A stretch of DNA of 58,213 bases, taken from Bacillota bacterium (GTDB taxonomy: Bacteria; Actinomycetota; Aquicultoria; Aquicultorales; Aquicultoraceae). Under the pieces are notes generated by a model that saw only the letters and a list, made by a program, of their open reading frames with translations, was not told where the DNA came from and did no database searches. This document shows positions 50,285 through 55,278 of this stretch, piece by piece. The DNA is taken from assembly GCA_023511485.1 (NCBI GenBank), contig JAIMBH010000016.1, positions 1-58,213 of the forward strand. The letters run 5' to 3'. The position numbers were made by a program, and so were the translations under genes. Numbering within the stretch: position 1 is the stretch's first letter; the number at the start of each line of letters is the position of its first letter.

Positions 50285-50956
50285 TTATTGCTTTGTTTTT
50301 ATGTCGCGGATTGCGTCGCGCTGCAGAAAACCGCCTGCCAATTTATTCCTTAGCCCAAGGATGAAATTAAAGGCAGGCACGGTTTTCATGTAGGTGCTAT
50401 ATTCTGTCCCTATCGCCTTTTGGCTGTACCTATCCTCTTCTTTTGATGCAAGGATGAAAGCGAAGCTTGCGATTATACCCAGCGCGATGACAACAGCATT
50501 CGCCACGAGAAAGGCGATACCTAGTGAAGCCAGAACACCGCTGAGATGGATAGGATGCCGGATTATGCCGTAAATTCCCTGTGTTAGAAATAACCGCGTG
50601 CTTCCCCATGCCGAGATAAGGTTGCTAACTTTGCGTTTTGATAAAAAGGCGTAACATAGTAATACCAGGCAGGCCAGAATCAAAAGCATACCAACGGATT
50701 GTAGGCCAACATTAAGAACGCGATCCATACCAAGCCTAAGGAATTGGCCCGCGTAATTGGCTACAATAAATATCTGCGTAGATAATACAGCAACACCCAT
50801 ACTAAGAATTGCGTCGCAGTACAGCTTATCGATAAGCGATCTGATAATCAGATAAGCTGTATAGGCTAAGAATAAAGAGTAAATGATTATCCCGGTTACC
50901 ATGATTATATTCAAGTCCTTAAAAGCTTTGCTATTAACCGTTTTAGAATAAAACAT
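50285..50956 (-). CDS. ICMT/phospholipid-methyltransferase-like integral membrane protein
   Basis: A 223-residue membrane protein with about six helices. The C-terminal part matches the isoprenylcysteine carboxyl methyltransferase/NnrU-like pattern: TQGIYGIIRHPIHLSG (the RHP motif), then SKEEDRYSQKAIGTEYSTYMK. Bacterial members methylate lipids, isoprenoid or small molecules; the substrate cannot be told. It stands alone on the minus strand after a GGDEF/HD-GYP gene, in the accessory region. Confidence 0.82.
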   Translation of the reverse strand: MFYSKTVNSKAFKDLNIIMVTGIIIYSLFLAYTAYLIIRSLIDKLYCDAILSMGVAVLSTQIFIVANYAGQFLRLGMDRVLNVGLQSVGMLLILACLVLLCYAFLSKRKVSNLISAWGSTRLFLTQGIYGIIRHPIHLSGVLASLGIAFLVANAVVIALGIIASFAFILASKEEDRYSQKAIGTEYSTYMKTVPAFNFILGLRNKLAGGFLQRDAIRDIKTKQ

Positions 50957-53369: not shown

Positions 53370-53732
53370 CTACTTTATAAGACCTAATTTCGTCATCAGC
53401 CAGTTTATCTCTCTTGGTACCTGGTGGGTTCTAATTTTAGTTACAAATAGCAAGGAAGAGCTTAGAAGCAAGGCAAACAAGCTTACCCAGAACCATTTAG
53501 GAAGATCGTTCCCCTGGGTAACCACATATAGATAAGGCAAGAACCAGGCAAAACGGTTGATAGTTATACCCCAGGCGATCCTCTGCCATGATCGTTTGAT
53601 GAATCCCAGGGCAACCAAATACCACCCATACCAGTATATAGGGATAGATAGAACGTAGAAAAACAGAAACACCAGTGGGTTTACACTATATGTCGTTTGT
53701 ATAAAGTAAATTAGCCGTTCAATCGATTCCAT
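53370..53732 (-). CDS. Small membrane protein of unknown function
   Basis: 120 residues with about three hydrophobic segments (NPLVFLFFYVLSIPIYWYG, then around 70 and WFWVSLFALLLSSSLLFV), rich in Trp, Tyr and Phe. It ends in a basic tail. No family is recognised. It stands 53 bp after the E1-like gene on the same strand, so it may be the third member of that cassette. Confidence 0.65.
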   Translation of the reverse strand: MESIERLIYFIQTTYSVNPLVFLFFYVLSIPIYWYGWYLVALGFIKRSWQRIAWGITINRFAWFLPYLYVVTQGNDLPKWFWVSLFALLLSSSLLFVTKIRTHQVPREINWLMTKLGLIK

Positions 53733-53785
53733 TCTTCATCCCTTTGGCGCTTGTTTAACTAAGTTCTTAGTTAAACAAGTAGCTT

Positions 53786-54679
53786 CTACATGCTGCTACT
53801 TTTGTTTTTACGGGAGTTCAGTCCCATTAAAGCCAATGATGCGTAGAATGCTACCTTCCTTGCTTTTCGTATTTTCATCTTCCGTTTGTATAGGTCAATC
53901 CATATATACCGGGGTGCGGTTATCAGAGGCTTGCGCTTCAAAAGGTACATAAGCACCTCAGTTGAAACTGCCGCCGAAACTAGCGATACCGAAGGGCTTA
54001 TCCCTGGAACGCTTATTTTACCGTCGACAACGTCTCTTAGTACCTGTATGTCAATGTAGCTGGGCAACCAGGGGCACCATTTATGTATGGGTACGTCGCT
54101 AGATAAGATTTCTTCAATCGGCTGGCTTTCACTGAATCCGAGATAGCTCTCAAAAGATAAGCTATCCGGCATAAATGCCATAACTATAGCTCCAAAACCG
54201 ATATTAAGCCCGGTAATTAGGGGCAGATGCCGCTTTCTTGCTTCCCGGGCGAGCATGACCGCAATCTCGTGCATTGTGAACTCGGACTCATCGATAACGA
54301 TACTGGCGCCCTCTATAAAGTCGCAGATGTTTTTCTCATGTATCCCTGTTTCATACACATCGACCTTACAAAATGGATTGATCCTTTTTACAATATCTCC
54401 TATTTCCTGGGCTTTGTTTGCACCAAGCGTATCAATATAGCAGCCGTTTTGCCGGTTAATGTTACAGGCTTCAAACTCACCTGGGTCGGCCACTTTAATA
54501 TGGCCTATTCCCGCTCTTGCAAGTGTCTCGGCAATTAAGCCGCCATCACCGCCAACACCGGCAATTACGACTGTTGCATTTTTAAGTATCTCTTGCTCAT
54601 TTTTAGACACTATGCCGATATTCCGCATAAAAAGCTCGCCGTAATCCGGTAGATCCGGCTTTATCTTTAACAATTTCAA
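53786..54679 (-). CDS. ThiF/MoeB/E1-like adenylating enzyme of unknown target
   Basis: The 297-residue protein has the E1-like Rossmann fold: GVGGDGGLIAETLARAG near 37, VADPGEFEACNINRQ with the Asp and the N-x-R-Q adenylation residues, LGANKAQEIGDIVKRINP with the Lys, and VIDESEFTMHEIA with the second Asp. No CxxC zinc pair and no clear catalytic Cys is seen, so it may adenylate without thioester transfer, unlike ThiF/MoeB. No ThiS/MoaD/ubiquitin-like gene is nearby. Its ATG overlaps the FeeM-like gene stop by 4 bp, so the pair is translationally coupled. Confidence 0.85.
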   Translation of the reverse strand: MKLLKIKPDLPDYGELFMRNIGIVSKNEQEILKNATVVIAGVGGDGGLIAETLARAGIGHIKVADPGEFEACNINRQNGCYIDTLGANKAQEIGDIVKRINPFCKVDVYETGIHEKNICDFIEGASIVIDESEFTMHEIAVMLAREARKRHLPLITGLNIGFGAIVMAFMPDSLSFESYLGFSESQPIEEILSSDVPIHKWCPWLPSYIDIQVLRDVVDGKISVPGISPSVSLVSAAVSTEVLMYLLKRKPLITAPRYIWIDLYKRKMKIRKARKVAFYASLALMGLNSRKNKSSSM

Positions 54680-55278
54680 TCGCGTTCACCTGCAGCTTTT
54701 CTTCTGGTTTGCTTGAAAAATAGATATAGCGAAGGATTCTTGTCGTGAAGGTTCTGCATGGTTTCTTCAATATCAAGGACATATGGAGCGGTGACATCGC
54801 CCAAGCAATATTTGCAGTCCCCTACCTGTTTAAAGATAAAGCCCAGCCTTCTCGACAGCGCGATAAATCTCCTATCTAGGATGGCATACCAGTACTTGAT
54901 TCCATGGTCGATGCTGTAATCGTATATGGCTTTGCAGAGGCTAAGCATAATGTCATGGTCTATACTCCTCTTCTCCCTCAAAACGACCAGCCTCGAAACT
55001 TCAGCCGCAACGCCTGGTACATCCATCTTTGGAATACCAAAGTATTTATTTACTGGAAATCCAGTAGGTGAATCCAGAATCAAACGTATTGACCCTATAG
55101 CGTTCTCTTTTTCATCCAGCGCGATAAAATGGATGGCATGCTGATCAAATTCATCGGATTCAAGGCAATCCTCCGAGCTGGATAGGCTTATATATTCTTT
55201 TTCCTCGCAGAAAACTCTATATCTAAGTGCAAAAATCTGCTCTTTATCTTTTTTTGACAATGCCTGCCTTATTAACAA
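54676..55278 (-). CDS. FeeM/LuxI-like N-acyl amino acid synthase-type acyltransferase
   Basis: A 200-residue GNAT-fold protein. The N-terminal ALRYRVFCEEKEYI matches the R-x-x-V-F-x-x-E block of autoinducer and N-acyl-amino-acid synthases (FeeM); IGSIRLI and AEVSRLVVLREKR are the other conserved blocks. Such enzymes use acyl-ACP or acyl-CoA to acylate an amine. The substrate is unknown. Translation starts at a TTG 4 nt after AGGAGG. It overlaps the E1-like gene. Confidence 0.82.
   Translation of the reverse strand: MLIRQALSKKDKEQIFALRYRVFCEEKEYISLSSSEDCLESDEFDQHAIHFIALDEKENAIGSIRLILDSPTGFPVNKYFGIPKMDVPGVAAEVSRLVVLREKRSIDHDIMLSLCKAIYDYSIDHGIKYWYAILDRRFIALSRRLGFIFKQVGDCKYCLGDVTAPYVLDIEETMQNLHDKNPSLYLFFKQTRRKAAGERD

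Follow-up and report, generated by a model that had tools for sequence, protein, structure and literature searches.

The locus lies in a 58,213-nucleotide stretch of DNA, called the window here. Five consecutive genes are encoded on the minus strand: a GGDEF/HD-GYP membrane protein (paralog 2; 57633-55438, 731 aa), an acyltransferase of the FeeM/TIGR03694 type (55278-54676, 200 aa), an E1/ThiF-fold adenylating enzyme (hereafter E1; 54679-53786, 297 aa), a small membrane protein (53732-53370, 120 aa), and a further GGDEF/HD-GYP membrane protein (paralog 1; 53267-51066, 733 aa). The acyltransferase and E1 genes overlap by 4 bp (...TTGA...). Both have a TTG start preceded by a plausible Shine-Dalgarno sequence, AGGAGG for the acyltransferase and AGGTGA for E1. 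Gaps of 159, 53, and 102 bp follow the genes for paralog 2, E1, and the membrane protein, respectively, in the order given above. The positions and strand of the three inner reading frames, the overlap, and the 53-bp gap agree with the first-pass annotation of this DNA, as does its description of the three genes as framed by two cyclic-di-GMP (c-di-GMP) paralogs: the two proteins are 57% identical, and the SGDEF, HD, and GYP motifs are present in both. Paralog 2 has an N-terminal sensor region of about ten transmembrane segments.

The small membrane protein has two hydrophobic segments over the threshold. It had no family match in a profile search and no detectable relatives among the loci compared; in two relatives from the window's own family (G008 and G009), the place between the sensor gene and E1 is taken by another membrane protein that shows no detectable similarity to it. 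An ICMT/PEMT-like membrane methyltransferase gene (50285-50956, minus strand) is possibly part of the same transcription unit as the cassette; its matches fall just under both Pfam cut-offs (24.8 against 25 bits, and 23.8 against 24). The gap between E1 and the membrane protein gene contains a perfect 30-bp palindrome, CTTGTTTAACTAAGTTCTTAGTTAAACAAG (53750-53779; a 14-bp inverted repeat with a 2-nt centre), which occurs once in the window and was expected zero times in shuffled sequences. It is rather operator-like than terminator-like, since no T tract follows it, and is a possible operator. A promoter scan of the window performed no better than shuffles. Terminator-like sites numbered 13 against 6.3 expected, none of them 3' of E1 on the coding strand.

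The acyltransferase matches the Pfam FeeM family (PF21926; E = 7.6e-15, 55.5 bits against a cut-off of 27), and narrowly passes TIGR03694 (113.2 bits against 111.95). Its closest solved structures are LuxI-fold synthases, e.g., 5w8c, which is BjaI, named in the Tyz paper as a close structural relative of TyzA. The conserved columns D45, R65, and E93 are held in common with the LuxI/FeeM fold. By family criteria the protein is a FeeM/LuxI-fold N-acyl amino acid synthase, its activity being predicted from sequence.

E1 matches the ThiF family (PF00899; 4.4e-31) and passes no NCBIfam cut-off. Scores against the curated models were 82 (cut-off 159) and 78.7 (275) bits for ThiF, 59.8 (376.6) for MoeB, and 59.7 (450) for UbaA, shortfalls of about 77 to 390 bits; the Rv1355c-family model gave 58 against 476. 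The ATP-site residues R19, GxGGxGG at 41-47, D65, N75/R76/Q77, K89, and D130 are kept in 95-99% of 87 aligned E1 rows. Position 133 is occupied by Asp in 87% of these 87 rows and by the other acid, Glu, in the window E1, its family relatives, and loci L017, L018, L019, and L028. None of the five cysteines of the window E1 form a CxxC pair, and no gene for a ubiquitin-like carrier was noted beside it. The annotation's statement that E1 keeps its adenylation residues and lacks zinc-binding cysteine pairs was thus borne out, and by score the protein stands apart from the known MoeB/ThiF enzymes, far below every MoeB/ThiF cut-off; firm membership among them, together with a carrier encoded elsewhere, was what the annotation had said would count against its reading. 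The structure model is confident (pLDDT 91.9), with AclA of Tenacibaculum discolor, ThiF, PaaA, MoeB, and MccB as best fold matches. MccB and PaaA are E1s with small-molecule substrates. Together with AclA (PDB 9egb/9egc; 21% identity), they are the closest solved E1-fold relatives; unlike in those systems, no peptide precursor gene was seen at the window locus.

In the E1 phylogeny, an FDO-rich, mainly proteobacterial side (FDO denotes the flavin-dependent oxidase partner discussed below) is separated with support of 98-99 from an FDO-poor side, whose branches are long; the root is arbitrary. The FDO-poor side contains the window E1, its family, Dehalococcoidia, Elusimicrobiota, and one sequence each from Bacteroidota, Bacillota, Desulfobacterales, and Methylococcales. 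The window E1 pairs with the Bacteroidota sequence L017 (support 85) and not with the two relatives from its own family, a grouping that would fit horizontal exchange. Most matches to E1 in the phylum at 1e-30 to 1e-35 spanned only about half of the model and were left out of the set of relatives. Likewise, G163 matched most of the model and was set aside: its E1 is divergent and GC-rich, and no sensor, acyltransferase, or FDO was present in the stretch examined.

The same enzyme pair is known from acyl-oxazolone biosynthesis. In OxzAB of Pseudoalteromonas rubra and in TyzABC and TrzAS of Mycobacterium tuberculosis, an aromatic amino acid is N-acylated and then cyclised in an ATP-driven step (PMC10404671, PMC12856293). 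Both TyzA/TyzB and TrzA/TrzS work biochemically as pairs, TyzB and TrzS cyclising their substrates (PMC10404671, PMC12856293); with TyzA and TyzB alone, the cyclised intermediate went undetected and was seen only with the full pathway, including the desaturase (PMC12856293). The trzAS genes also adjoin c-di-GMP genes; the authors point out these neighbours and propose, without proof, a role in signalling (PMC12856293). The window locus resembles these pathways in that a predicted N-acyl amino acid synthase of the FeeM/LuxI fold adjoins a ThiF-fold protein that is predicted to use ATP, with c-di-GMP genes nearby. It differs in that a flavin-dependent oxidase/nitroreductase partner or fusion is missing, in that its E1 belongs to a separate, multi-phylum group of the tree, and in that sensor GGDEF/HD-GYP genes directly flank the pair. 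An FDO alignment search of the window's genome returned only a 44-residue match to an ordinary nitroreductase of about 180 aa, and none in the cassette; the same search found nothing in G004, G008, and two Dehalococcoidia genomes, and reached 4e-147 in the control genome.

The first-pass annotation had proposed that the pair acylates and adenylates a small amine or peptide to give a lipid-like product. Acylation plus adenylation with a lipid-like product gained from the comparison and now has a studied precedent, Oxz/Tyz/Trz, which the annotation did not name (PMC10404671, PMC12856293); the amine or peptide target needs correction, the precedent pointing instead to the carboxylate of an N-acyl amino acid as the type of E1 substrate, and the pathway lacks its flavin-dependent oxidase partner here.

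Of 93 loci fetched by E1 similarity alone, 46 have an acyltransferase of the same family no more than 4 kb from E1, an adjacency beyond chance that reinforces the coupling of the two genes described in the annotation. The annotation had also named separate occurrence of the homologs in most genomes as evidence against a joint system, a pattern that the comparison did not show. We found an acyltransferase and/or FDO in 70 of 85 loci picked by E1 similarity only (flanks of up to about 8 kb on each side; the set includes the window, and two family loci are counted twice through overlapping fetches). The linked loci span Pseudomonadota, Bdellovibrionota, Planctomycetota, Campylobacterota, and others. 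The cassette is real and conserved, and its chemistry is near a known pathway; what is new is the desaturase-less composition and the link to c-di-GMP.

On the window's side of the tree, 10 of 17 loci have a GGDEF or HD-GYP gene no further than 4 kb from E1, compared to 3 of 76 others (Fisher 5e-7, ignoring the relatedness of the loci and leaving out the window itself), which strengthens the signalling link at which the annotation had hinted. The ten loci comprise two family relatives, five Chloroflexota of one lineage, and one each from Elusimicrobiota, Bacillota, and Methylococcales; because they share lineages, the independent cases number about four to five, and in the Methylococcales locus (L028) the c-di-GMP gene is distant and on the opposite strand. 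Taken alone, such proximity is circumstantial and no proof of sensing.

The architectures in this group differ. Dehalococcoidia (L020, L027, L033, and L065) have an apparent operon of GH3, E1, and a GAF-GGDEF-HD-GYP protein with a membrane N-terminus, the sensor gene lying 132-167 bp from E1; a gene for a GH3-type, putative acyl-amino-acid synthetase takes the place of the acyltransferase. The GH3-like enzyme OlsH makes N-acyl ornithine in planctomycetes, which makes GH3 a reasonable non-homologous stand-in for FeeM, although no E1 partner is described for OlsH in the part of that report drawn on here (PMC12493201) and the window uses a FeeM-type enzyme. A further conserved gene lies downstream of the operon in all four loci. 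In Elusimicrobiota, genes for B12-binding radical SAM proteins and for a 7TM-GAF histidine kinase come after E1; in L134 and L135, the N-terminus of this kinase matches the Dehalococcoidia sensor. ICMT genes related to that of the window stand before E1 in L019 and L135. In the Bacillota locus L061, a PilZ-like protein (22.3 against 22.5 bits) overlaps E1, followed by a kinase and an HD-GYP response regulator. In L028 (7974-9428), the E1/ThiF domain is fused to a class I SAM methyltransferase, and a FeeM-like acyltransferase lies 266 bp away.

Within the window's own family (f1), the N-terminal 335 or so residues of the flanking GGDEF/HD-GYP proteins are modelled, with moderate confidence, as a sensor domain of about ten helices; the sensor model has only eight sequences, and a fold search gave no significant match, only rhodopsin-like ones at E>=0.08. 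The domain was found in 9 of 396 genomes of the phylum, all of them from f1. The distribution of the acyltransferase was followed with our own alignment; the Pfam FeeM model missed the window's gene and those of G004 and G008. The acyltransferase is present in the window's genome (G000, twice), G003, G004, G007, G008, and G009, and adjoins a sensor-domain gene in all of these except G009, where a contig break splits the cassette: the C-terminus of E1 (97% over 35 residues) is at one contig end and the start of the membrane protein is at the other, consistent with an intact cassette. The second G000 acyltransferase (contig C25) is beside a methyltransferase at the contig start, so its other flank is out of view. 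A third sensor paralog in G000 (contig C40; L120:9678-11856) is an exception, with no acyltransferase nearby; a frame break splits it in the HD domain, due to either pseudogene formation or an assembly error. Control GGDEF/HD-GYP genes from the same genome group had no acyltransferase/E1-type cassette neighbours. One apparent acyltransferase beside a GGDEF/HD-GYP gene (L126, in G011) proved to be an ordinary GNAT.

The cassettes of G000 and G004 share a chromosomal site by rplS-trmD-isochorismatase, and G006, G008, G009, and G010 share another next to the same synthetase-like gene pair; G003 and G007 are located elsewhere. E1 is found in G000, G004, G008, and, in part, G009, but is missing from the acyltransferase-sensor pairs of G003 and G007. 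A methyltransferase gene lies beside the acyltransferase in G003, G004, and on C25 of G000, and B12-radical SAM genes are close by in G007 and G008. From this distribution, acyltransferase plus sensor is the stable core in f1, whereas E1, methyltransferase, and radical SAM vary and serve as tailoring functions. In G001, G002, G006, and G010, the flank of interest is a contig end or short. Breaks in the assemblies of relatives coincide with the cassette or lie no more than a few hundred bases from it (G001:C24, G002:C46, G006:C11, and G009:C117 and C141), perhaps through near-repeats or strain variation; absences of cassette genes in G001, G002, G006, and G009 are therefore unsafe. Beside the acyltransferase/E1/methyltransferase cassette of G004 are two tandem LuxR/GerE-type regulators (L004:10798-12367).

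The domains, the overlap, the ATP-site residues, the missing desaturase, and the recurrent gene neighbourhoods, all read from sequence, fit a desaturase-less, anaerobe-style variant of the acyl-oxazolone pathway that is coupled to c-di-GMP control, possibly with the product as the signal and the sensor protein as its receptor; we regard this as an even call. In this scheme, the FeeM-like enzyme would take a fatty acyl group from a putative donor and attach it to the amine of an amino acid, probably an aromatic one. E1 would then adenylate the carboxylate that is left free on this N-acyl amino acid, and the adenylate might close to a saturated azlactone/oxazolone or go to another acceptor. As no flavin oxidase follows, the presumed product would not be the dehydro-oxazolone of OxzB/TyzC/TrzS. 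The product, through putative binding, or its turnover would be monitored at the membrane by the roughly ten-helix N-terminal domain of the GGDEF/HD-GYP proteins, which would respond by synthesis or breakdown of c-di-GMP. Since the usual O2-dependent last enzyme is missing and c-di-GMP sensors are repeatedly found as neighbours, a signalling role for the lipid is possible. Several points count against this reading: TyzA and TyzB without the desaturase gave no detectable cyclised intermediate (PMC12856293); saturated azlactones hydrolyse readily, so E1 may do something other than cyclise; E1 is optional within f1; the sensor paralog on C40 is unpaired; proximity to c-di-GMP genes is no proof of sensing; the 10 of 17 loci include one lineage several times and the distant case of L028; and the small sensor model has no significant fold match.

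One alternative is a metabolite function. The pair could make an N-acyl amino acid or oxazolone lipid with a membrane, antimicrobial, or surface-active role, the GGDEF/HD-GYP neighbours regulating production or being incidental. N-acyl tyrosines of Stieleria are antimicrobial, and stieleriacine clusters join an acyltransferase, a methyltransferase, ThiF, and a nitroreductase (PMC12479983, PMC12856293). As described in the part of the report drawn on here (PMC12479983), the stieleriacine, kyonggic, and thalassotalic acid clusters resemble the window in combining N-acyl amino acid synthase and ThiF, and those of Stieleria add a methyltransferase, as do the f1 relatives (L115, L116, and L004 have one adjoining the acyltransferase); unlike the window, the clusters with ThiF also have a nitroreductase, and that part reports no c-di-GMP genes for them. 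Most E1/acyltransferase/FDO loci outside the window's group have no c-di-GMP neighbours, which also favours a metabolite. Within the group, however, sensor genes recur in several phyla with different architectures, and in f1 the acyltransferase has the same family-specific sensor domain as its partner at what seem to be three chromosomal sites. We consider such a metabolite role possible but on the doubtful side.

Alternatively, E1 could activate the carboxylate so that the N-acyl amino acid is handed to another nucleophile or becomes a methyl ester, without cyclisation. The missing desaturase, the genes for ICMT-like carboxyl methyltransferases close to the window cassette and, in Elusimicrobiota, close to E1, and the E1-methyltransferase fusion in L028 are all in keeping with this. 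However, methyltransferases need no adenylate, and the characterised relatives TyzB and TrzS do cyclise (PMC10404671, PMC12856293); we consider this alternative rather unlikely. The NCBI name of TIGR03694 would make the acyltransferase a PEP-CTERM/exosortase-associated enzyme for protein sorting or exopolysaccharide. Passing that model is the argument for it, but the margin is narrow, the FeeM model is passed too, no exosortase was seen beside the gene, and the name reflects co-occurrence, not activity, so we think this very improbable. Least credible, and disfavoured, is a role for E1 in activating a ubiquitin-like protein or a sulfur carrier of the ThiS/MoaD type, its operon partner being incidental: the PF00899 fold, structural matches that include ThiF and MoeB, and the lack of another E1 match in the genome at E<=1e-3, which might make this its only E1, are outweighed by the absent CxxC zinc pairs, the scores far below the ThiF/MoeB/UbaA cut-offs, the linkage of most E1 loci to acyltransferase or FDO, and the lack of any trace of E1 in several f1 relatives, some of whose assemblies break at the locus.

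The oxazolone-like variant wired to c-di-GMP can be extended to a new class of bacterial communication module, in which FeeM or GH3 and an E1-fold enzyme would make an N-acyl amino acid (azlactone-type) autoinducer without O2, perceived directly by a multi-TM receptor domain that is fused to a histidine kinase in Elusimicrobiota and elsewhere to GGDEF/HD-GYP, feeding the signal straight into c-di-GMP. We offer this extension tentatively, as rather unlikely. It shares with LuxI/FeeM acyl-homoserine lactone (AHL) quorum sensing the acyltransferase fold and a putative acyl-amino-acid-like product that could signal; it differs in the E1 step and in the candidate receptor, a membrane c-di-GMP protein, with no LuxR-type receptor gene in the window's cassette.

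The locus bears on the function of acyl-oxazolones and of the N-acyl amino acids related to them. The window and its relatives provide an independent, cross-phylum version of the c-di-GMP hint from trzAS of M. tuberculosis, with named candidate receptor domains and two unrelated synthases (FeeM and GH3) beside the same E1 group; the signalling idea is therefore testable in cloned genes. With an E1 step but no O2-dependent desaturase, these loci suggest that the pathway has an anaerobic branch. Three further Elusimicrobiota loci (L136, L137, and L140) have E1 and FDO beside short receiver-like proteins and long (about 440 aa) acyltransferase-containing proteins, possibly another signalling link, for the FDO-type pathway.
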